Assembly: GCF_003977665.1 (NCBI RefSeq)
Contig: NZ_RYYV01000033.1
Span: 1-32,143, forward strand
Reading direction: 5' to 3'
Source: Dyella choica
GTDB taxonomy: Bacteria > Pseudomonadota > Gammaproteobacteria > Xanthomonadales > Rhodanobacteraceae
DNA length: 32,143 nt
Shown: positions 1 to 11,218 of the stretch, one piece after another
Numbering within the stretch: the first letter of the stretch is position 1
Layout of the letters: each line of letters opens with the position of its first letter
Program-made: the position numbers and the translations under genes
Notes under the pieces: model-generated
Told to the model about the DNA's origin: nothing
Databases searched by the model: none
Seen by the model: the letters and a program-made list of their open reading frames with translations, nothing else

Positions 1-18
1 TGGCTGCCGGCTTACTCC

Positions 19-45
19 GATCCCGCCCCTTGCCGGAGCGGGATC
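19..45. terminator. GC-rich hairpin at left edge
   Basis: An 8-bp perfect stem (GATCCCGC at 19-26, GCGGGATC at 38-45) encloses an 11-nt loop. It lies 68 bp beyond the 3' end of the leftward peroxiredoxin gene. No T-run follows on either strand, so a role as a rho-independent terminator is only possible. It could equally belong to a gene left of the window. Confidence 0.3.
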
Positions 46-113
46 TTCGAAACCCTACTGAGACTCGACGCTAATCAAGTGCCAAGCAGGGGAGGGGGTA
101 CATTCCGGGCGAC

Positions 114-782
114 TCACGCAACACTGTATTGCTTTAGAACGGGCAACAATTCTTCCGGCTCCGGACGGTGGGTGTAGTCCGGATTCACTTCGGCATACAC
201 GATGGTGCCGTCGGGCGCCACCACGTAGCGGGCCGGAATGGGCAGCGTCCAGCTGTCTTCGCCGTTGAACGCCGGCAGGTTGTTTTTCAGCTGCCTGTAG
301 AGTTCGACCAGATAGTTCGGCAACGCATAGCGAATACCGAAGGCTGCTGCGACGTCATTGTGGGTGTCGCTGAGGATCGGAAAGCTGAGTTTGTGGGTGC
401 GCGTGGACTTCAGGCTGTTCACGGCGATCTGCGGCGAAATCGCCACCAGACTGGCACCGGTTGCGCGAATAGCGGGCAGCGCAGCTTCCAGCGCCTGGAG
501 CTCGAAGTTGCAATACGGACACCATACTCCGCGATAGAAGCTGATCACCAACGGACCTTGCGCAAGCAGTTCCCGTGAGGAGACCGGCTGGCCATGGGCG
601 TCGTTCAAGATGAAGTTCGGCGCCCGGTCGCCGGCCTTCAGGGCGCGGCCGGCCTGGCCCGAGGCGATCAGTTCCTGCGTCGCGCGTTCCATGATCGGGT
701 GGATTTCCGGTGGTGCGTTATAGGGAGGCTTGCCAGCGCGAAAATCCGCCTTGAAGGCGTCGAGAGTGGCTTGCAGTGACAT
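114..782 (-). CDS. Peroxiredoxin-like AhpC/TSA-family protein
   Basis: A 222-residue thioredoxin-fold protein of the AhpC/TSA superfamily, expected to reduce peroxides or other oxidants in the cytoplasm. The strand with the active site reads SFYRGVWCPYC, giving a CxxC pair at C88/C91. This matches the peroxiredoxin-like AhpC/TSA group rather than classical 2-Cys AhpC. No signal peptide is visible. The frame is open 37 codons further upstream, but ATG at 782 is preferred because AGGAG lies 8 nt before it and homology begins there. It lies 107 bp downstream of the RclC-like gene on the same strand and is probably co-transcribed with it. The context (RclC plus an RclR-like regulator) suggests a role in oxidant or hypochlorite defence. 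The reducing partner is unknown. Confidence 0.85.
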   Translation of the reverse strand: MSLQATLDAFKADFRAGKPPYNAPPEIHPIMERATQELIASGQAGRALKAGDRAPNFILNDAHGQPVSSRELLAQGPLVISFYRGVWCPYCNFELQALEAALPAIRATGASLVAISPQIAVNSLKSTRTHKLSFPILSDTHNDVAAAFGIRYALPNYLVELYRQLKNNLPAFNGEDSWTLPIPARYVVAPDGTIVYAEVNPDYTHRPEPEELLPVLKQYSVA

Positions 783-830
783 GACATGGACTCCTATGAG
801 TTCGAGGTGCATCCATGTTGCTGACCGGCT

Positions 831-851
831 GCCGCGGGCAGAACCCGCGGC
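831..851. other. Intercistronic hairpin
   Basis: A perfect 8-bp stem (GCCGCGGG at 831-838, CCCGCGGC at 844-851) with a 5-nt loop sits between the RclC-like and peroxiredoxin genes. There is no U-tract. It could be a partial terminator or an mRNA processing or stability element that gives the two genes different expression levels. Confidence 0.35.
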
Positions 852-889
852 GCGCGCATAGCTTTCATTCCTGCAAGGAATCCGCCTGC

Positions 890-1378
890 TCAATGGCTGG
901 ACGAAACCGCCCTTGCCACGTCTTCCTTGAGCAGGTAGACCGACACGGCCAGCAGCACTACGTCCTTCATCAGGAACGGAACATTGCCGACCATCGCCGG
1001 GAAACCGCCGGCGGAAGCGGCCCAGCCATTAGGCATGAAGGGAATGATCGTGACCGTCATGATGAAAGTGACGACCGAACCCGCCGCACCCAGCACACCC
1101 AGGCGCTTGTTCCAGAACCCGGCCAGGATCAGCGCGCCGAAGGTCCATTCGGAAACCCCCAGAAAGGTGCTGGCGCCACGGATGCCGAACACCGGATACA
1201 TCCAGGAGATGAGCGGGCCGTTGCTGATATAGGGAATCAGCACCTGGGCCTCGTAGTCGAACCACTTCTGATAGCCGAAGAAGGCAAAGATGATCACCAT
1301 CGAAGCGCGTAGCAGGTGGTAATCGAAATCCTTCTTGAGCAGTCCGGATTGGGCCAGGAAGCGGATGAGCATGTTCAT
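890..1378 (-). CDS. RclC/YkgB-like DUF417 membrane protein
   Basis: A 162-residue inner-membrane protein of the DUF417 (YkgB/RclC) family with about four hydrophobic segments. Recognisable family features are the FFGYQKWFDYEA stretch after the first membrane segment, the NGPLISWMYP stretch, and a conserved KD in the last segment (FLMKDVVLL). E. coli RclC belongs to the rclABC operon needed for survival of reactive chlorine species; its biochemical role is unknown. ATG at 1378 has GAGGA about 8 nt upstream. It is divergent from an AraC regulator of the RclR type, the same arrangement as in E. coli, and upstream of a peroxiredoxin-like gene. No rclA (flavoprotein reductase) or rclB homologue lies in the window. 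I assign the family firmly, the reactive-chlorine role by analogy. Confidence 0.85.
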   Translation of the reverse strand: MNMLIRFLAQSGLLKKDFDYHLLRASMVIIFAFFGYQKWFDYEAQVLIPYISNGPLISWMYPVFGIRGASTFLGVSEWTFGALILAGFWNKRLGVLGAAGSVVTFIMTVTIIPFMPNGWAASAGGFPAMVGNVPFLMKDVVLLAVSVYLLKEDVARAVSSSH

Positions 1379-4088: not shown

Positions 4089-4119
4089 CAGAGTTTTACC
4101 CTCCCTTGCACGAATTTAC

Positions 4120-4193
4120 GTAGGCTGGGATGGCAATCCCAGCATCGCGCGGGGTGCAAACATGGCAATGCTGGGTTTGACAACCCAGCCTAC
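4120..4193. repeat. Paired GTAG-type REP element, copy 2
   Basis: A 74-bp element 31 bp beyond the SDR stop. The left hairpin is GCTGGGAT-ggca-ATCCCAGC and the right hairpin is GCTGGGTT-tgac-AACCCAGC. The stem base pair at position 7 is swapped (A-T versus T-A) between the two hairpins with pairing kept. Confidence 0.92.
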
Positions 4194-4214
4194 GCCGCTA
4201 CGGGTGATTGAACC

Positions 4215-4243
4215 GAACCACGCCGGCGAGGTATCAACCGTAC
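4215..4243 (+). promoter_or_regulatory. Candidate ECF-type promoter of the sigma operon
   Basis: GAACCA at 4215-4220, a 17-bp spacer, then CCGTAC at 4238-4243. The GAAC-type -35 and CGT-type -10 are the usual ECF sigma pattern, which would fit autoregulation. GAACC is tandemly repeated (4210-4219). The start codon is 26 bp downstream. This was identified by eye only. Confidence 0.35.
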
Positions 4244-4268
4244 AAGCACCAATGTTCGGGGCACGGCC

Positions 4269-4859
4269 ATGCGCCAGGAGCGGGCGGATTCGGCAGGGGG
4301 AAAAGAGAACGTCTCGGTAGACGAGGAGGCGGCCCTGCTCAGCCGTGTGGCGGCTGAGGAGAAGGACGCCTTTGAGGCGCTGTACCGCCTGTACAACCCG
4401 CGCCTGCGCCGCTTCGTGTACGGCGTGACCAAGCAGCTTGCGCTGGTGGAGGAGATCCTCGACGACACCATGATGGTGGTGTGGCGCAAGGCCTATACCT
4501 TCAACCACAGCTCGAAGGTATCCACCTGGATACTCGCCATCGCCTATCGCCAGTCGCTGAAGGCACTCAGACGCCTGGGCCAGCTGCAGCAAACCGAGCA
4601 ATACGAGCAAGAGGATCTGCCTGCGCCCGGCCCCGACGACGCTCTTGAGCAGTTGGAGATGCACAAGCAGCTGGAGCAAGCGCTGGGCAGGCTTTCGCCA
4701 GAGCAGCGCGCGGTGATGGAACTGACTTATTACTTCGGTTACGCCTGCCGTGAAATCGCCGAGATCATGGACTGCCCCGTCGATACGGTGAAAACCCGCA
4801 TGTTCTATGCACGGCGCAAGCTGAGGTCGTCGCTGGCAGCGCAGCGGGAGGCCATATGA
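4269..4859 (+). CDS. ECF-type RNA polymerase sigma-70 factor
   Basis: A 196-residue extracytoplasmic-function sigma factor. Region 2 spans about 34-102 (FEALYRLYNPRLRRFVYG through the DDTMMVVWRKA and TWILAIAYRQSLK motifs). Region 4 spans about 133-186 (LSPEQRAVMELTYYFGY, then the HTH CREIAEIMDCPVDTVKTRMF). There is no region 1.1 or 3. A 20-residue polar N-terminal extension precedes region 2. ATG at 4269 lacks a strong Shine-Dalgarno sequence; a start slightly downstream cannot be excluded. Its stop overlaps the anti-sigma start by 4 nt (ATGA), so the two are translationally coupled. It should direct transcription of its own operon and perhaps other envelope genes when released from the anti-sigma factor. 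Confidence 0.93.
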   Translation: MRQERADSAGGKENVSVDEEAALLSRVAAEEKDAFEALYRLYNPRLRRFVYGVTKQLALVEEILDDTMMVVWRKAYTFNHSSKVSTWILAIAYRQSLKALRRLGQLQQTEQYEQEDLPAPGPDDALEQLEMHKQLEQALGRLSPEQRAVMELTYYFGYACREIAEIMDCPVDTVKTRMFYARRKLRSSLAAQREAI

Positions 4860-5479
4860 GCGGTCGCGTGATCAAGTTCGAAGGTTCGATCCACGCCGAA
4901 GCCGACCGGCTGCTGCCGTGGTACGTGAACGGAACGCTTCAAGCTGATGAACAACTTCACGTCGAACGGCACCTGGCGGAATGCGCGGGCTGCCAGCACG
5001 AGGTGGCATGGTTGCGCGAGGTGCAGAAAGAGTTCGCCGCTCAGGCCGAACAGGATGACGTATCGCCGAAGATGCAGCATCCGCATCAGCGCACGCGAAA
5101 GCAGCGCAGTGCATCCCCTGCTTCATCCATGTGGCGGCGGCGCGAAAAGCGATTGGCCTGGCTCGCGGTAGCGCAGGCCCTGATCATTCTCGCGCTGGGC
5201 GTGATACTACTGAGCCAGCCGCATGTGCGTTATCACACCTTGAGCGCACCGGGTGACAAGGGGGCGCTGCTGGTGGTGGTGTTCGATGCGCAAACCCATG
5301 AAGCGCAGATGCGCACGCTGGTGCGCGAAAGCGGTGCGCGCATCGTGGGCGGCCCCACGGCGGAAGGTGCTTACGTGCTGCGCGTGCCCGATGCGCGCGA
5401 GGCATCCGCACGCAAGATACTGGCCGGCTCGCCGCAGGTCACATTGGTGGAAGATCTCAGCTCGGGTGGCAATCCATGA
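4856..5479 (+). CDS. Membrane anti-sigma factor with zinc-finger (ZAS) domain and prodomain-like tail
   Basis: A 207-residue single-pass protein. The cytoplasmic N-terminus has a zf-HC2 anti-sigma zinc-binding motif, H39-x3-C43-x2-C46, with a further H35. A basic linker (RRREKR) precedes one membrane segment at about 99-120. The periplasmic tail (about 128-201) has a strand-helix-strand-strand-helix-strand pattern: a LLVVVFDA strand, a helix with MRTLVRESGARIVGGP, AYVLRVP, and a final helix ending VTLVEDL. It looks to me like an inhibitor-I9/subtilase prodomain-type fold. The downstream gene is a secreted subtilase and overlaps by 4 nt, so I infer the tail may sense or inhibit that protease. 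Zinc finger and topology are clear; the tail assignment is an inference. Confidence 0.88.
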   Translation: MSGRVIKFEGSIHAEADRLLPWYVNGTLQADEQLHVERHLAECAGCQHEVAWLREVQKEFAAQAEQDDVSPKMQHPHQRTRKQRSASPASSMWRRREKRLAWLAVAQALIILALGVILLSQPHVRYHTLSAPGDKGALLVVVFDAQTHEAQMRTLVRESGARIVGGPTAEGAYVLRVPDAREASARKILAGSPQVTLVEDLSSGGNP

Positions 5480-6723
5480 TGCGCGCCTGGCTGCTCGCTG
5501 CCGTATTCTTCGCGCTAGGCCCTTGTGCCGCAGCGCTGGCGGAAACGCAGCAGCCCACGCAAGTGCTGGTCATGCTGCGTGCAGCCGCGCCACATCTGCA
5601 TGCGGCTGACGGTTATGTCGCCAGCTATACCACCTCCCCCGCCGAGACCGCACACAAGCGCATCGCGCGCGCGCTTGCACGGCAATACGGCCTGCAACTC
5701 GTCGACAGCTGGCCGATGCCGGCGCTCGGACTGGATTGTTTCGTGATGCAGCTCGCGCCCGGCACGTCGGCAAGCGATGTCACCCAATTGCTTTCGCACG
5801 ACACCCGAGTGGAATCGGCCGAACCCAGGCTGGCCTTCCACACCCTGGCCAAGGACGATCCGTTGTATCCGCTGCAGCCGACCGCCAGGCAGTGGCATCT
5901 CGCCGAGTTGCACGCGCTGGCGACCGGTCGAAACGTAAAGGTCGCCGAAGTGGACAGCGGCGTGGATACGACCAATCCGGATCTCACCGGCCAGGTGATC
6001 GAACAACGCAATTTCGTTGACGACGGCGGCTATCGCGCCGAACTGCACGGCACCGAAGTGGCCGGCATCATCGTCGCGCGTGAAGGCAATGGCGTGGGCA
6101 TCGTGGGCATTGCTCCGCAAGCGCGCCTGCTCGCTCTGCGTGCCTGCTGGCAGCTTGCGGACGGCAGCGCGACATCGGCATGCGACAGCTTCACCCTGGC
6201 CAAAGCTTTGCAATATGCGCTGGAAAAACACGTGCAGGTCATCAACCTGAGCCTGACCGGGCCGAATGACCGCTTGCTGCAACGCCTGCTGGATGCGGCG
6301 CTGGCACGGCACATTACGGTGGTGAGCGCGGTGGACGATAACGCTGCCGACGGTGGCTTTCCGGCGTCCCATCCGGGCGTGCTGGCGGTAGCCAGCGAAC
6401 ACTCCCCGATCCAGGTGGCGGGCGCATGGCTGGCACCGGCCGAGGACATTCCCACCACCCAGCCCGGCCCACGCTGGAATCTGGTGAACGGATCGTCATT
6501 TGCGGCGGCGGAGGTCAGCGGCCTGGCCGCACTGCTGCGCGAACTGTCCCCTGACATCACGCTGACGCAGCTGCATGACGCTTTGCACGCAAGGACTGCG
6601 TTAGGCTTGGCCTCAATGCGGCCGATGTCGATCGATGCATGCGCCGCCCTGGCGCAGGTAAGCCGTCGGTGCACCTGCGACTGTGCCTTGGCGCATGCAT
6701 CCTTGGGGAGGCCGCGCCGATGA
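5476..6723 (+). CDS. Secreted S8 (subtilisin-like) serine peptidase
   Basis: A 415-residue exported protease. A Sec signal peptide occupies about 1-22. A prodomain-like region (about 28-118) is followed by the S8 catalytic domain. The triad is D160 (VAEVDSGVD), H191 (HGTEVAGI) and S341 (NGSSFAA). The oxyanion-hole position, normally Asn in an AxGN motif, reads AVDDN with Asp288 at the aligned place; this may alter activity or autoprocessing. The C-terminal tail is unusual, with C389, C399, C401 and C403. Translation is coupled to the anti-sigma gene by an ATGA overlap, and the porin gene begins 9 nt after its stop. It is probably periplasmic or outer-membrane-associated. A natural role would be processing the anti-sigma factor or another envelope substrate in the signalling pathway, which is inference from the operon. 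Confidence 0.88.
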   Translation: MMRAWLLAAVFFALGPCAAALAETQQPTQVLVMLRAAAPHLHAADGYVASYTTSPAETAHKRIARALARQYGLQLVDSWPMPALGLDCFVMQLAPGTSASDVTQLLSHDTRVESAEPRLAFHTLAKDDPLYPLQPTARQWHLAELHALATGRNVKVAEVDSGVDTTNPDLTGQVIEQRNFVDDGGYRAELHGTEVAGIIVAREGNGVGIVGIAPQARLLALRACWQLADGSATSACDSFTLAKALQYALEKHVQVINLSLTGPNDRLLQRLLDAALARHITVVSAVDDNAADGGFPASHPGVLAVASEHSPIQVAGAWLAPAEDIPTTQPGPRWNLVNGSSFAAAEVSGLAALLRELSPDITLTQLHDALHARTALGLASMRPMSIDACAALAQVSRRCTCDCALAHASLGRPRR

Positions 6724-6732
6724 GTAGGCCTT

Positions 6733-7425
6733 GTGTTACGAGTCGTCGTGGCAGTGCTTCTCGCCTTGTTTGCGATGCAGGCCCGGGCGCAGCTGACCGG
6801 CAGCGCAAGCTTTGTTTCCGACTACCGCTTTCGCGGTGTATCCCTCAGCGATGACCGACCGGCCGCACAATTGTCGTTCGACTATGACTGGCCGGCCAGC
6901 GGTTGGTACGCGGGAAGCATGATGTCCAACGTACGACTCGATTCGCGTCATGCCGCACAACTGCTTGGCTATGCCGGCTACGCGCATCGCTTGAATGCGG
7001 ACTTCAGCTGGGAAGGCGGTGTGCGCTATACGCGTTTTTCCGGCCATGAGTCCTATGCCTACGCTGAAGCCTATACGGGCCTCACGTTTCGGCAACTGAC
7101 CGGCCGCATCTACTACGCGCCGAATTACTTCAAAGCCGGTTATGCCGTGTGGTACGCCGAACTCAACGACAGCCATGCCTTGGCCGGGCCGTGGTACGCG
7201 TTTGCGCATGCGGGTTACCTGCGGCGCGCCGGCGATGTGGCCGAGTACCACGTCAGCCGCTTTCATTCCGATTTTCGGGCCGGCATCGGGTTCGCCTTGC
7301 AGCCCTGGAATTTCCAGCTGAGCTGGACCACGACGCGTGGTGCTGCCGATGCCGCATTTGGCTATCCATCCGCTGCAGGCGCAAACCGCAACGCCTGGGT
7401 TCTAGGCATCTCGTATGCGTGGTGA
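6733..7425 (+). CDS. TorF-family putative outer-membrane porin
   Basis: A 230-residue predicted beta-barrel with a signal peptide (cleavage after MQARA, about residue 19). The N-terminal mature segment, with FVSDYRFRGVSLSDDRPA, is the hallmark of the TIGR02001/TorF family. Alternating hydrophobic and aromatic residues continue to the C-terminal ISYAW, a typical outer-membrane terminal strand ending in an aromatic residue. GTG at 6733 is the likely start, 9 nt after the protease stop. It is the fourth gene of the sigma/anti-sigma/protease operon. Related proteins are annotated as putative porins; the solute is unknown. In this context it may be the target or output of the sigma factor, or a component the protease helps to survey. 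Confidence 0.85.
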   Translation: MLRVVVAVLLALFAMQARAQLTGSASFVSDYRFRGVSLSDDRPAAQLSFDYDWPASGWYAGSMMSNVRLDSRHAAQLLGYAGYAHRLNADFSWEGGVRYTRFSGHESYAYAEAYTGLTFRQLTGRIYYAPNYFKAGYAVWYAELNDSHALAGPWYAFAHAGYLRRAGDVAEYHVSRFHSDFRAGIGFALQPWNFQLSWTTTRGAADAAFGYPSAAGANRNAWVLGISYAW

Positions 7426-7481
7426 TGCTATGGGCGTGGGCATCCGACTGATCTGATTGTTTTGTCCTCACGGCACACACA

Positions 7482-7504
7482 CCTCCCATGCCCTGCATGG
7501 GAGG
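7482..7504. terminator. Strong hairpin between TorF-like and beta-propeller genes
   Basis: A perfect 10-bp stem (CCTCCCATGC at 7482-7491, GCATGGGAGG at 7495-7504) with a 3-nt loop. It lies 56 bp past the porin stop and 54 bp before the next start. No T-run follows, so it may be an attenuator or transcript-end stabiliser for the sigma operon rather than a full terminator. Confidence 0.45.
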
Positions 7505-7557
7505 CGGGGAATGCATGCCCTCGGGCGCATCGTTCATCCCTGAAGGAGGGATCTGAC

Positions 7558-8649
7558 ATGAGACGTACTCTGCTCAAAAGGAAACTCATTCATTCCATCA
7601 TCGCGAGCTTGGCCATCGCAGGCGTGGCGACCGGCATCCTGTATTCGAGGGCCGCGGCCGCGCAGAGCGACACCGGCCACATCCTGATCGCCGATCAGTT
7701 CAACAATCGCGTGATCGAAATCAATCGCCTGACGCACCAGATAGTGTGGCATTTCGGCAACGGCTCGGACCTGCCCGGTCCGCACAGCATAGTCGGCACC
7801 AACGATGCGGAACGCTTTGGACCGTTCACACTGATTGCCGGCACCGGTACCCCGCCGGGCTTCCCCGGATGCTCCAACCCGGCCGGCTGCCCGGACAACC
7901 GCGTGATCATCGTGGATACGGCCGGCACCATCATCTGGCAATACGGCCAGGCCGGGGTGAGCGGTTCAGGGCCCAACCAATTGAACACACCTGTGCATTC
8001 GCTGTTCCTGATCAACTTCCCCGGCCACCCTGGCCCGCACGTACTGATCACCGATCAGGTCAATGAACGCATCATCCTGGTCAACCTGAATCACCAGATC
8101 GTATGGCAGTACGGCACCACCGGCACGGCGGGTAGTGGCGCGAACCAGCTCAATAATCCCAACAGCGCCGAAGCGCTGGAAAACGGGCACATCCTGATCG
8201 CCGATGAAAACAATAACCGCGCAATCGAGATCCGGCCCAATGGGCAGTTCGTCAAGCAATTCACTGCCGGGGGCTCGGCCAGTGGCGTGGCGTTCGCCAG
8301 CCGCCTGCCGAACGGCGATACCTTGCTCACCGATTCGAACAACAGCCGCGCTGTCGAGGTGGACGGCAGCGACCACGTGGTGTGGCAATACATCACCAAT
8401 TTGCAGCCGGGCAGCAATCCAACTCCGCTGCCGACGCGCGCGATACGCCTGCACAACGGCGATACGTTGATCAGTGACCAGTTCAACGACCGCGTGATCG
8501 AGGTTACCCCGGGCGGCAAGATCGTGTTCGACCAGGGCGACCTGAATATTCCGGGCAATGGCTTCGACGACCTCAATGGCCCGTATGACGCCAAGCAGAT
8601 CGGCGACTTCACCGGCCTGACGCCGCCGTTCGACTTCGACCAGGAGTGA
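7558..8649 (+). CDS. Secreted NHL/PQQ-like beta-propeller protein
   Basis: A 363-residue exported protein. ATG at 7558 has an excellent AAGGAGG about 9 nt upstream, so the longer open frame from 7462 is rejected. The signal peptide (about 1-34) ends near AAAAQS. The mature part consists of about six repeats of the form H/TxLIxDxxNxRxxEV followed by a HQIVWQYG-like strand. Examples are the GHILIADQFNNRVIEI, HVLITDQVNERIILV, ILIADENNNRAIEI, TLLTDSNNSRAVEV and TLISDQFNDRVIEV strands. This indicates a beta-propeller of NHL or PQQ-like type, probably binding a ligand or partner in the periplasm. Catalytic residues are not evident. It follows the sigma/protease operon on the same strand but behind a hairpin, so co-regulation is possible, not shown. 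Confidence 0.85.
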   Translation: MRRTLLKRKLIHSIIASLAIAGVATGILYSRAAAAQSDTGHILIADQFNNRVIEINRLTHQIVWHFGNGSDLPGPHSIVGTNDAERFGPFTLIAGTGTPPGFPGCSNPAGCPDNRVIIVDTAGTIIWQYGQAGVSGSGPNQLNTPVHSLFLINFPGHPGPHVLITDQVNERIILVNLNHQIVWQYGTTGTAGSGANQLNNPNSAEALENGHILIADENNNRAIEIRPNGQFVKQFTAGGSASGVAFASRLPNGDTLLTDSNNSRAVEVDGSDHVVWQYITNLQPGSNPTPLPTRAIRLHNGDTLISDQFNDRVIEVTPGGKIVFDQGDLNIPGNGFDDLNGPYDAKQIGDFTGLTPPFDFDQE

Positions 8650-8673
8650 TGCGTTCATGCTGGCCGCGAACCG

Positions 8674-8702
8674 CCCCTCCCCCGCACCGCCGGGGGGAGG
8701 GG
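8674..8702. terminator. GC-rich hairpin after the beta-propeller gene
   Basis: A perfect 10-bp stem (CCCCTCCCCC at 8674-8683, GGGGGAGGGG at 8693-8702) with a 9-nt loop starts 25 bp after the beta-propeller stop. It lacks a T-run. A plausible transcript end for the upstream gene. Confidence 0.5.
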
Positions 8703-8720
8703 GGCTTCGCGTGTCTGAAC

Positions 8721-8736
8721 TGCGAAACCGTTCGCA
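8721..8736. promoter_or_regulatory. Small dyad upstream of the RcnB-like gene
   Basis: TGCGAA-accg-TTCGCA forms a 6-bp inverted repeat with a 4-nt centre, 95 bp before the RcnB-like start. It could be an operator for a dimeric repressor or a weak hairpin. No regulator is assigned. Confidence 0.2.
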
Positions 8737-8830
8737 ACTGCAGCATGGCCCAGGATGGAGAGCATTCAGGTGGTAGGGCTAGTCTTTACCTTACGGCACT
8801 AAGGCCGAGTCACCTACACGGTTAATCCGT

Positions 8831-9220
8831 ATGAAACGCCACCTTCTAGCACTGGCCTTGCTTTCCGCAGTACCGATGCTGATGACCACCACGGCCGCTT
8901 ACGCGCAGGACCATCACGATCACGGCTGGGGCGACCAGGATGATGATCACGGGCATGGCCATGGGCACGGACACGATAAATGGGACGATGACGGCGAACA
9001 TCACGACCATGGCCGCCACCGGGGTTGGGACAAGCATTACGGCCGTGGCGAGTATCTGCCGGAGCGTTATCGCGTACGCGAGTACTACGTGGAGGATTAC
9101 GGCCGTTACCACTTGTATGCGCCGCCGCCCGGCTATGTATGGATACAAGGCGATGATGGCGGGTATGTGCTCGTTGCGATAGCGACGGGCTTGATCGTCA
9201 ACGAATTGCTGGGGCACTAA
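8831..9220 (+). CDS. RcnB-family His-rich periplasmic protein
   Basis: A 129-residue exported protein with a signal peptide ending at about AYAQD (residue 26). A His/Asp/Gly-rich segment follows (about 27-72), with HGHGHGHGHD as its core; it is likely to bind divalent metals such as nickel, cobalt or zinc. The C-terminal half has the RcnB-family signature YRVREYYVEDYGRYHL, then PPPGYVWIQ and VLVAIATGLI. E. coli RcnB is a periplasmic protein needed for nickel/cobalt homeostasis with the RcnA exporter. No metal exporter is adjacent here. The His-rich insert is much denser than in E. coli RcnB, to my recollection. The gene appears monocistronic, ending 19 bp before a REP pair. Confidence 0.82.
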   Translation: MKRHLLALALLSAVPMLMTTTAAYAQDHHDHGWGDQDDDHGHGHGHGHDKWDDDGEHHDHGRHRGWDKHYGRGEYLPERYRVREYYVEDYGRYHLYAPPPGYVWIQGDDGGYVLVAIATGLIVNELLGH

Positions 9221-9239
9221 GTCCCGCTAGCGCAGCCGC

Positions 9240-9313
9240 GTAGGCTGGGTTGCAAAACCCAGCATCGCGCGGGTTGTAGGCAGGGCAATGCTGGGTTTTG
9301 CAACCCAGCCTAC
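9240..9313. repeat. Paired GTAG-type REP element, copy 3
   Basis: A 74-bp element between convergent genes, 19 bp past the RcnB-like stop and 15 bp from the amidotransferase stop. Hairpins are GCTGGGTT-gcaa-AACCCAGC and GCTGGGTT-ttgc-AACCCAGC. It probably serves as the shared 3' boundary of both transcripts. Confidence 0.93.
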
Positions 9314-9328
9314 GACGCTGGTGCGGCC

Positions 9329-11218
9329 TCAAAACTGCCGCGCCAGCACCGGCTCTTTCTGCACAGCCACTGCCGTACGTTCGCTATCGAGCCATTGCAA
9401 CCACTCGCTCAACACGATCAACGTCCAGATCGCGCGCGCATGATCGCTGGCACGCGCTTGGTGTTCGTCAAACAGTGCATGCGCGGCGCGCGTGTCGATA
9501 CCTACCGCGGCAAGACCTGCGCTCGTAACGTGCGCCTGCGCCCAATCGCGCAAGGGCCCGCGCAACCACGCAGCAAGCGGTACCGACAAGCCGCGTTTGC
9601 GGCGCGTGATCACTTCCTTGGGCAGGTAATCCAGCGCATAGCGCTTGAGGAACACCTTGGTGGTGAGACCGCGCACGCGTGCCTCCACCGGCAACCTGGC
9701 AGCGAACTCGATCACACTCTGGTCCAGGAAGGGCGCGCGGATTTCCACGCCGTGCAACATCGCGCCACGGTCTGCTTTCGCCATCAGCGCGTCCGGCAGC
9801 GAGTTGCCGAAGTCGTAGCGCTGGATGGTGTCGATCAGGCGCGAGGCATCGTGCCGGGTGTCATCGACGGGCGGAGCGATGCCGAGCTTGCGCTGCCACA
9901 CGGGGGGAATGTTCGCGGTCCACAGCAGATGCCGCGCCAGGCCGTCCAGCTCCTGCCCGCGAATGAAACGCTTGAGCAGGAACGAGAGCGTGACCTTCTT
10001 GTCGCTGGTGGGCAGCGCTTCGATCGCCCGCTGTGCCAGCGCTTTCACCGGCGGCGGCAGGTTGGCGTAAAGACTGGCCCAGCGCGCGCCCAGATACGTG
10101 GGGTAGCCGCCGAACAGTTCGTCCGCGCCTTCGCCCGCCAGCAACAGGCGCACGTCCTGCGAAGCGCGCTTGGTCACCAGCGTAAGCGGAATCCACGCCG
10201 GATCGGCTAGCGGTTCGCCGTTGGCGCGGATCAGTTCGCGCAACGTGCGCGGTACATCCTGCGCGGTTACGTTCACCTCGACGAAGTTGCAGCCCAGCTG
10301 TTCGGCAAGCTGGGCCGCGTGCTGGCCTTCGTCGAAGGATGCTTCGGAGAAGCGGATGCAGTACGCGGAGAGTTTCTTTTCCGGCCGTATGCTGCGCGCC
10401 ACCGCCGTCATCAAGGCCGAATCGATGCCGCCGCTGAGCAGCACGCCGTAATCGACGTCGATATCGCTTTGCCGCCGCACGGCTTCGCGGAAGACCGGAT
10501 CGAAGCTGCCTGGCGATGGCGTGCTGCCGGCTTTTTCCGCCGGAAACTGCCAATAACGCTGATGGCGGATGCCGGTCGGTTCGATCACGACCATCTCGCC
10601 CGGGCATACTTTGTGGATGTGCTTGAGCAGACTGGCAGGCGCAGGGCAGTAGCCGGAGCGCAGATAGTGGGCGAGGCCCGTCGCGTCGATCTCAAGGTCC
10701 GGCTTGCAGGCTTTGACCAGTGCAGCCAGCTCCGAAGCGAAATACACGGTCTGGCCGATCACGGCGTAGTACAGATGACGCTCGCCGGCGCGATCGCGCG
10801 CCAGAATCAGCCGCTGGTGGCGGCTGTCCCACAGCGCCAGCGCGAATACGCCCTGCACGTGTTCGAGAAACGAGAGTCCTTGCTCCAGATACAGCGGCGC
10901 GAGTACGGCAATGTCAGTGCTTTGCGTGATGGCATGCCCGGCTTCGGCGAGCGAGCCGCGCAGTTCGCGGTGGTTGTCGATTTCGCCGTTGCAGGCGACG
11001 ATCACCCCGGCTTCATATTCCAGCAGCGGTGGCTGGTGCTGATCCACGCCGCGGATCGCCAGGCGATTGGTGGCCATGGCGAGGCCGGGCCGCGAAACGA
11101 AGGCATCGCCATGCGGCCCGCGATGGGCCAGGGCGTTGAGCATCGTGCTCGCTTGCTGCTCCAGGTATGGCGGCGGATGTCCTGCATCCCGACTCAAGAT
11201 TCCGCAAATTCCACACAT
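9329..11218 (-). CDS. AsnB-type glutamine-hydrolysing asparagine synthase / amidotransferase
   Basis: A 629-residue class II glutamine amidotransferase. The start at 11218 exposes Cys2 (MCGICG), the N-terminal nucleophile, so the longer open frame to 11317 is rejected. The glutaminase domain (about 1-210) has HRGPHGD (33-38), NGEI (77-80) and the STDIAVL segment. The synthetase domain has the ATP-pyrophosphatase loop SGGIDS (262-267) and a GEGADELFGGYPTY motif. It would transfer ammonia from glutamine to a carboxylate: aspartate, or in glycan loci a sugar acid or modified residue. Several usually conserved sites differ from housekeeping AsnB (GPHG for GPD-type, DRAGERHLYY for DRFGxKPLYY). Being last after two glycosyltransferases on the same strand, it may be a glycan-modifying amidotransferase rather than an asparagine supplier. 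Confidence 0.87.
   Translation of the reverse strand: MCGICGILSRDAGHPPPYLEQQASTMLNALAHRGPHGDAFVSRPGLAMATNRLAIRGVDQHQPPLLEYEAGVIVACNGEIDNHRELRGSLAEAGHAITQSTDIAVLAPLYLEQGLSFLEHVQGVFALALWDSRHQRLILARDRAGERHLYYAVIGQTVYFASELAALVKACKPDLEIDATGLAHYLRSGYCPAPASLLKHIHKVCPGEMVVIEPTGIRHQRYWQFPAEKAGSTPSPGSFDPVFREAVRRQSDIDVDYGVLLSGGIDSALMTAVARSIRPEKKLSAYCIRFSEASFDEGQHAAQLAEQLGCNFVEVNVTAQDVPRTLRELIRANGEPLADPAWIPLTLVTKRASQDVRLLLAGEGADELFGGYPTYLGARWASLYANLPPPVKALAQRAIEALPTSDKKVTLSFLLKRFIRGQELDGLARHLLWTANIPPVWQRKLGIAPPVDDTRHDASRLIDTIQRYDFGNSLPDALMAKADRGAMLHGVEIRAPFLDQSVIEFAARLPVEARVRGLTTKVFLKRYALDYLPKEVITRRKRGLSVPLAAWLRGPLRDWAQAHVTSAGLAAVGIDTRAAHALFDEHQARASDHARAIWTLIVLSEWLQWLDSERTAVAVQKEPVLARQF

Follow-up and report, generated by a model that had tools for sequence, protein, structure and literature searches.

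Organization of the operon

Here we describe a four-gene operon of Dyella choica that encodes an extracytoplasmic function (ECF) sigma factor, a zf-HC2 anti-sigma factor, an S8 subtilase and a TorF/Gcw_chp-family putative outer-membrane barrel. It lies in a window of 32,143 nucleotides (nt), the whole stretch of DNA analysed, which is one whole contig (G000:C27; NZ_RYYV01000033.1). The promoter and the genes are as follows.

4209–4234, plus strand: ECF-type promoter TGAACC-N15-GGTAT, the probable autoregulated promoter of the operon (conservation upstream of the sigma gene; genome scan)
4269–4859, plus strand: ECF sigma factor, 196 amino acids (aa) (Sigma70_r4_2, E 4.7e-15; Sigma70_r2, E 2e-9; TIGR02937 above cut-off)
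4856–5479, plus strand: zf-HC2 anti-sigma factor, presumed membrane-spanning, 207 aa (Pfam PF13490 above cut-off)
5476–6723, plus strand: S8 subtilase, 415 aa, with a signal-peptide-like start, its own prodomain and a catalytic domain (Peptidase_S8 above cut-off)
6733–7425, plus strand: TorF/Gcw_chp-family putative outer-membrane barrel, 230 aa (Gcw_chp, E 5.4e-17, 63 versus 24 bits; TIGR02001, 83.2 versus 47.15 bits)

The genes stand head to tail. The sigma TGA (4857–4859) overlaps the anti-sigma ATG at 4856 in an ATGA junction, a second ATGA joins the anti-sigma TGA (5477–5479) to the subtilase ATG at 5476, and 9 nt separate the subtilase stop (6723) from the GTG start of the barrel gene (6733). 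All four families match above curated cut-offs (Sigma70_r2/r4, zf-HC2, Peptidase_S8 and Gcw_chp in Pfam; TorF in TIGR02001). The 196-aa sigma factor has only the sigma2 and sigma4 regions of ECF proteins (PF04542 and PF08281 above cut-off), and the barrel protein is assigned to the TorF putative porins by both TIGR02001 and PF09694. A first-pass annotation had described this layout and called the gene identities firm, and we agree on both counts. Its starting point, 4215, is not a gene start: the position falls inside the conserved promoter, and the sigma open reading frame (ORF) begins at 4269. Among named homologues of the anti-sigma factor, that of Dyella flagellata is the closest (78% identity). 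We confirm the operon, find it conserved and regard it as more interesting than its first description; the steps of its circuit, set out in the Discussion, are those that we infer.

Conservation of the gene set

The order sigma, anti-sigma, S8, barrel is kept in all 12 orthologous loci (L031–L042), which come from 12 other genomes of the family, and the arrangement is therefore not a matter of chance. The anti-sigma query was matched in 28 of 61 genomes, that of D. choica included. A related module of three genes, in which the S8 gene is not followed by a barrel gene, is present at eight further loci (L043–L050); at L050, a weak Gcw_chp-like match (19 bits) stands before the sigma gene. L046 is a second ECF/anti-sigma/S8 module in the D. 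choica genome itself (G000:C14:63000-74189; sigma gene 7281–7871, anti-sigma gene 7868–8512, S8 gene about 8509–9807). No barrel gene was found in this paralogous module, and similar modules are present in seven other family members examined.

A named genome collection was then scanned with 27 anti-sigmas, and the best 80 of 111 loci were classified; they were chosen by likeness to the window anti-sigma, and the proportions are accordingly biased rather than those of an unbiased census. Directly after the anti-sigma gene stood a window-type S8 gene at 44 loci, another, mostly longer S8 gene at 19 and a caspase-like C14 gene at six, the two S8 types being split by their score against the window-type profile (at least 262 bits versus at most 185 bits). 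The remainder comprised eight loci without a protease in this position, two cut by a contig end and one irregular locus (L102). Within the window-type group, a sigma match was absent in L065 and weak in L064. Among the eight loci, L082 has S8 and Gcw_chp genes divergently upstream, and L103 has an S8 gene about 1.6 kb before the sigma gene. At L102, from Paraburkholderia phosphatilytica, a short S8-like remnant with a prodomain part lies between two sigma/anti-sigma pairs, an apparent case of decay or rearrangement.

The first-pass annotation had named conserved synteny among its checks and the frequent absence of protease and porin as the outcome that would speak against it. The family order provides the former, and the sigma/anti-sigma pair is accompanied by the protease generally and by the barrel within the window-type lineage.

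Caspase-like (Peptidase_C14) genes replace the subtilase behind prodomain-bearing anti-sigmas at L098 (6654–7529), L118 (6638–7504), L080, L090, L100 and L126, and their starts, judged by eye, resemble signal sequences. Pfam confirmed C14 at two of these six loci, and resemblance to this pair, judged by eye, served to assign the remaining four. In a tree of 92 anti-sigmas, five caspase-linked rows lie together across one branch (Shimodaira–Hasegawa-like approximate likelihood ratio test support 94; L100 left out), adjoining three other-type subtilase rows. We therefore read them as one exchange of protease type.

Protease association across the class

A less biased sample was drawn from 276 genomes of the class with the anti-sigma profile A2 and at most 10 candidates scored per genome. 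Outside the D. choica genome it yielded 71 places, of which 21 reached the C-terminal domain and 50 matched in the N-terminal part only. The G176 place, a canonical subtilase prodomain, and three places too near a contig end were dropped from the former group, and 17 were judged. A protease counted when it was encoded on the same strand, no more than 2 kb downstream. By this measure, 14 of the 17 domain-bearing anti-sigmas had a protease next door (12 S8, 2 C14), versus an S8 gene at 2 of the 50 N-terminal-only places (Fisher p 7e-10). Both of the latter are sigma/anti-sigma/S8 operons in which the domain profile missed, and the complete S8 lists for the genomes of the 50 places, compared by eye, held no further S8 gene within 2 kb downstream. 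The three domain-bearing places without a protease are in G137, G247 and G322 (one place each in the last two); the reading frames around the anti-sigma gene were inspected for G137 and G322, and those of G247 are masked by an overlapping frame.

In the reverse sample, the window-type subtilase profile A5, with at most six candidates scored per genome and D. choica again excluded, gave 13 matches. Four cover the catalytic part only and were set aside; of the nine that reach the prodomain, eight lie behind an ECF/anti-sigma-like pair and one at a contig end. Among these eight, the anti-sigmas of L165 and L166 are too diverged for the profile and were recognized by eye through their position, a hydrophobic helix and the pattern at the C-terminus, and L157 and L158, with the usual SAGN motif, fall outside the window type strictly defined. 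The association is thus seen from the anti-sigma profile and from the subtilase profile, and we conclude, as the family loci and the class sample both indicate, that the protease belongs to the system.

The C-terminal domain of the anti-sigma factor

The anti-sigma factor has three recognizable parts.

4898–4996, plus strand: zf-HC2 domain, aa 15–47, H39-x3-C43-x2-C46 (Pfam match; alignment)
5153–5212, plus strand: hydrophobic helix, aa ~100–119, presumed transmembrane (sequence by inspection; AlphaFold2 (AF2) helix 92–120)
5261–5476, plus strand: presumed periplasmic subtilase-prodomain-like domain, aa 136–207, beta-alpha-beta-beta-alpha-beta (PF22148, AF2, fold matches)

H39, C43 and C46 are invariant in 27 of 27 rows (alignment A1), PF13490 is above cut-off and the gene lies beside the sigma gene; these features place the protein among the class I zf-HC2 anti-sigma factors, as a putative inhibitor of its cognate sigma factor.

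In the AF2 model, aa 141–200 have predicted local distance difference test scores of 93–97. The best structural matches of this domain are subtilisin propeptides, and the propeptide–subtilisin complexes 1scj, 1spb and 2z58 are among the matches. By sequence, the window protein matches PF22148 at E 0.0086 (16.9 bits, below the Pfam cut-off of 21 bits), as do 43 of 92 anti-sigma relatives at E<=0.1 (best 1.3e-6). A Fervidolysin_NPro-like/I9-like propeptide, recognized by fold together with sequence match, is therefore assigned to the family, the window protein alone being below cut-off. Profile comparison of the domain with the prodomain of the subtilase itself gave E 7e-5 (probability 63), and the profile of the last anti-sigma domain alone recovered the canonical prodomain of the G176 subtilase. 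The G176 protein had been a candidate anti-sigma/subtilase fusion and was rejected as an ordinary subtilase with its own PF22148 prodomain. A sequence search of solved structures with the anti-sigma family profile returned the ChrR and 3hug anti-sigma chains, via the N-terminal part, and matched no propeptide; the propeptide link therefore rests on Pfam, profile comparisons and fold.

A prodomain-like last domain provides a physical reason for the pairing with a protease. It gives the outer domain of the anti-sigma factor the shape of a natural inhibitor of the neighbouring protease and suggests that the switch senses the protease itself.

The subtilase

The following features were located in the subtilase.

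5551–5850, plus strand: its own N-terminal prodomain, aa ~26–125 (profile match to the anti-sigma domain)
5953–5955, plus strand: catalytic Asp160 (59 of 59 rows)
6046–6048, plus strand: catalytic His191 (59 of 59 rows)
6337–6339, plus strand: oxyanion-hole Asn position of subtilisins, here Asp288 (alignment)
6496–6498, plus strand: catalytic Ser341 (59 of 59 rows)

The S8 triad of Asp, His and Ser is kept in 77 of 77 aligned partner subtilases of all subtypes and in all 58 window-type subtilases and paralogues. The oxyanion-hole Asn is present in 1 of 50 window-type proteins and in none of eight paralogues (1/58 at the aligned position), versus 19 of 19 other-type partner subtilases. Loss of this Asn in subtilisins costs orders of magnitude in rate. 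Its loss in the window lineage points to catalysis that is slow or unusual, and the trigger may accordingly be binding and not cutting. A literature search on subtilases with Asp in the oxyanion hole found nothing usable; PC2 is presumably a parallel.

The first-pass annotation had called the protease secreted. The signal-peptide-like start agrees with export, and the term needs qualification in that 30 of 57 related subtilases show a loosely defined lipobox, so that many may be anchored lipoproteins; the start of the window protein was judged by eye not to fit. Cys224 and Cys236 are invariant in 59 aligned subtilases (A3) and could form a conserved disulfide.

The barrel gene

A Gcw_chp-type gene lies beside the S8 gene in 38 of the 44 named window-type loci, on the same strand in 32 and convergent in six. 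At L168, it stands before the sigma gene. That adjacency is kept across these orientations and positions speaks for a functional link. Of the six window-type loci without a barrel gene, L111 has only 55 bases downstream and L117 has a weak match upstream. Pfam confirmed five of five Gcw_chp candidates tested in the named loci and two of four in the class sample; it gave no confirmation for the suspects at L164 and L165, which were left uncounted. Next to the 19 other-type subtilase genes we found no barrel gene; four of these loci (L081, L085, L099 and L124) have fewer than 700 bases of downstream sequence.

The first-pass annotation suggested that the protease senses the state of the barrel or the periplasm. 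For the barrel as its input we find no support beyond co-occurrence: no barrel gene was detected in L046 or next to the other-type subtilases, four of them with short downstream sequence. The part of the earlier circuit that ties the protease to the sigma/anti-sigma pair stands.

Promoter and flanking sequences

GAACC-N15-[CG]GTAT precedes the sigma gene in 13 of 18 family loci and in 16 of 94 upstream regions overall, where a background of 0.012 per 450 bp predicts about 1.2 (Poisson 2e-13). The usual form is ATTGAACC, at 4207–4234 of the window. For L058, one of the five family loci without the motif, the ORF start used misplaced the searched stretch. The D. choica genome (5.49 Mb) has four TGAACC-N15-GGTAT sites, and a reversed-pattern control has none. 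A conserved promoter before the sigma gene and few sites in the genome fit, but do not prove, autoregulation with a narrow regulon.

Eleven relatives have 12 promoter-like sites, seven of them at the operon (reversed-pattern control, three). Comparison of the other sites, which did not extend to L149, L151 and the three remaining D. choica sites (L139, L141 and L142), gave no convincing common target of the sigma factor beyond the operon; the two similar sites at L147 and L154 are internal to a reading frame resembling a lipid A acyltransferase and were discarded, their similarity being put down to coding conservation. L146 (G011:C1) has two motif copies back to back, 7 bases apart, at about 1501–1561; one faces the operon and the other a lipase-like ORF (1–1167, minus strand) whose start is about 330 bases off.

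An imperfect 30-nt inverted repeat (87% complementary arms) that looks like a repetitive extragenic palindrome occupies 4119–4194 of the window, between a short-chain dehydrogenase/reductase gene and the promoter. Downstream of the operon we noted three features.

7482–7504: 10-bp inverted repeat between the barrel and NHL genes
7558–8649: NHL-repeat protein gene, kept in 7 of 12 orthologous loci
8831–9220: RcnB-like protein gene, kept in 4 of 12 orthologous loci

The NHL-repeat and RcnB-like genes were left out of the operon, with the inverted repeat lying between and no sigma-type promoter noticed by eye before them; a terminator scan listed none between the barrel and NHL genes.

Discussion

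On balance, we cautiously favour the reading that this is an autoregulated envelope-signalling operon in which the anti-sigma factor would be the membrane receptor for its own dedicated subtilase. Sequence and model show an anti-sigma factor in which a zf-HC2 part for sigma binding is followed by a single presumed membrane helix and by a domain, presumably periplasmic, that matches subtilisin propeptides in fold and in C-terminal length. This domain would dock in trans on the exported subtilase like a propeptide and compete with the prodomain that the enzyme itself carries. Either this docking or a slow cut made by the subtilase once docked would open the anti-sigma factor to intramembrane proteolysis and free the sigma factor, which, as the promoter supports, would drive its own operon to give more anti-sigma factor, subtilase and barrel. 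Envelope state, substrate or the barrel might set the amount of subtilase available for docking. Docking as a trans prodomain, by analogy with the receptor logic of RsiV, seems to us somewhat probable, and direct site-1 cleavage of the anti-sigma factor by the subtilase is a more tentative proposal; the two overlap and are not exclusive.

To our knowledge, outside sensing by anti-sigma factors is known for only a few systems. In Bacillus subtilis, RsiV, the anti-sigma factor of sigma-V, is a lysozyme receptor that engages the active-site pocket of the enzyme and inhibits it, according to the available part of PMC5014341. Similarly, the extracytoplasmic domain proposed here would bind an enzyme's active-site cleft and thereby lead to sigma release. 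The lysozyme sensed by RsiV, as described there, comes from outside, whereas in the window the operon itself encodes the enzyme. The domain also belongs to another family: at E<=0.1 the only matches of the window anti-sigma are zf-HC2 and PF22148, and at E<=5 Pfam adds only a weak TMEM_230_134 match and no RsiV-type extracellular domain. With RpoE/RseA, DegS and RseP the operon shares an ECF sigma factor, a single-span anti-sigma factor and the logic of an envelope protease. DegS is an HtrA/PDZ protease (PMC8103513, available part). By contrast, an S8 (or C14) gene here directly follows an anti-sigma gene whose product has a propeptide-like domain, and Pfam detected neither a PDZ nor a trypsin family in the proteins of the operon, a search that did not cover DegS elsewhere in the genome. 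Neither FecR nor a TonB-dependent receptor, the marks of FecI/FecR systems, was found among the operon proteins with Pfam and TIGR, the barrel being Gcw_chp/TorF.

Propeptide-like subtilase inhibitors reportedly include POIA1 and the malaria SUB1 inhibitor; unlike these and the propeptides of subtilases, the module described here is fused via a membrane helix to a sigma-binding domain. Csx30 / CASP-sigma acts in the cytoplasm. This Cas7-11-Csx29 CRISPR system resembles the one proposed here in that inhibition of an ECF-like sigma factor is relieved by a dedicated protease, of the TPR-CHAT type; unlike the window operon, it is RNA-guided, and the accessible part of PMC10028731 mentions no propeptide-like domain. 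ECF54 is similar in that conserved carboxypeptidase, subtilase and CHAT-domain genes lie near an ECF sigma gene (PMC8999054, in the section available). In the literature, with coverage mainly of open-access papers and an earlier mention therefore possible, we found no description of a prodomain-bearing anti-sigma factor or of this gene set, and term searches of the available text of PMC7406223, PMC8103513 and PMC6056542 gave no mention of either.

The subtilase could instead be a conventional site-1 protease that cuts the anti-sigma factor when barrel or periplasmic stress activates it, as in RseA/DegS. We regard this as possible, if doubtful. The invariant triad fits it, caspase-like proteases in the same slot in some lineages make proteolysis seem a common theme, and the barrel gene is a frequent neighbour of window-type S8 genes. 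However, the oxyanion Asn is all but absent from window-type and paralogous subtilases, with the expected cost in rate, no cleavage site or barrel-sensing domain was recognized, and no barrel gene was detected at L046 or at the other-type loci, four of them with short downstream sequence. Propeptides are folding chaperones and product inhibitors, and the anti-sigma domain might thus be mainly a membrane-tethered inhibitor or chaperone that quiets a dangerous protease until the sigma factor is released, the protease being output and not signal. The propeptide–subtilisin complexes among the structure matches and the probable transcription of the operon by its own sigma factor agree with this, but the subtilase has its own prodomain and the domain is retained in anti-sigmas with caspase partners or none, and we consider it unlikely.

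Alternatively, the periplasmic domain could be a generic ferredoxin-like sensor of some other ligand and the protease merely a frequent regulon member. Two observations weigh against our reading here: unrelated ferredoxin-like folds score nearly as high in structure comparison, and domain-bearing anti-sigmas also occur with caspase-like partners or without a protease. Such a coincidence of common folds is nevertheless quite improbable in view of the PF22148 matches among relatives, the fact that the profile of the anti-sigma domain recovers a canonical prodomain, and the protease association in the class sample. That sigma factor and protease form an abortive anti-phage or cell-suicide module is very improbable. 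The PADLOC subtilase model PDLC03014 matches (E 1e-16) and caspase-like variants exist, but within the subtilase the PADLOC matches are confined to the catalytic part, and none of the three remaining proteins matched at E 0.001; we rejected phage defence as weak on this evidence.

In conclusion, we return to the anti-sigma factor as a receptor for its partner protease. Tentatively, this may extend to a widespread anti-sigma class that senses via a captured protease prodomain, with the catalytic domain of a dedicated partner, in its free form, as ligand. The subtilase of the window lineage would have traded fast catalysis, with the oxyanion Asn lost and the triad kept, for near-stoichiometric signalling with a TorF barrel, and in sister lineages the slot would be filled by a subtilase with full catalytic equipment or by a caspase-like protease that is exported. 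Should a prodomain acting in trans prove to be the sensor, the input would be concrete, namely how much of the partner protease is unoccupied. The invariant triad combined with loss of the oxyanion Asn offers a natural series in which binding can be separated from cleavage in signalling. The operon also gives a context for part of the Gcw_chp/TorF family, whose Pfam label is still "unknown function".

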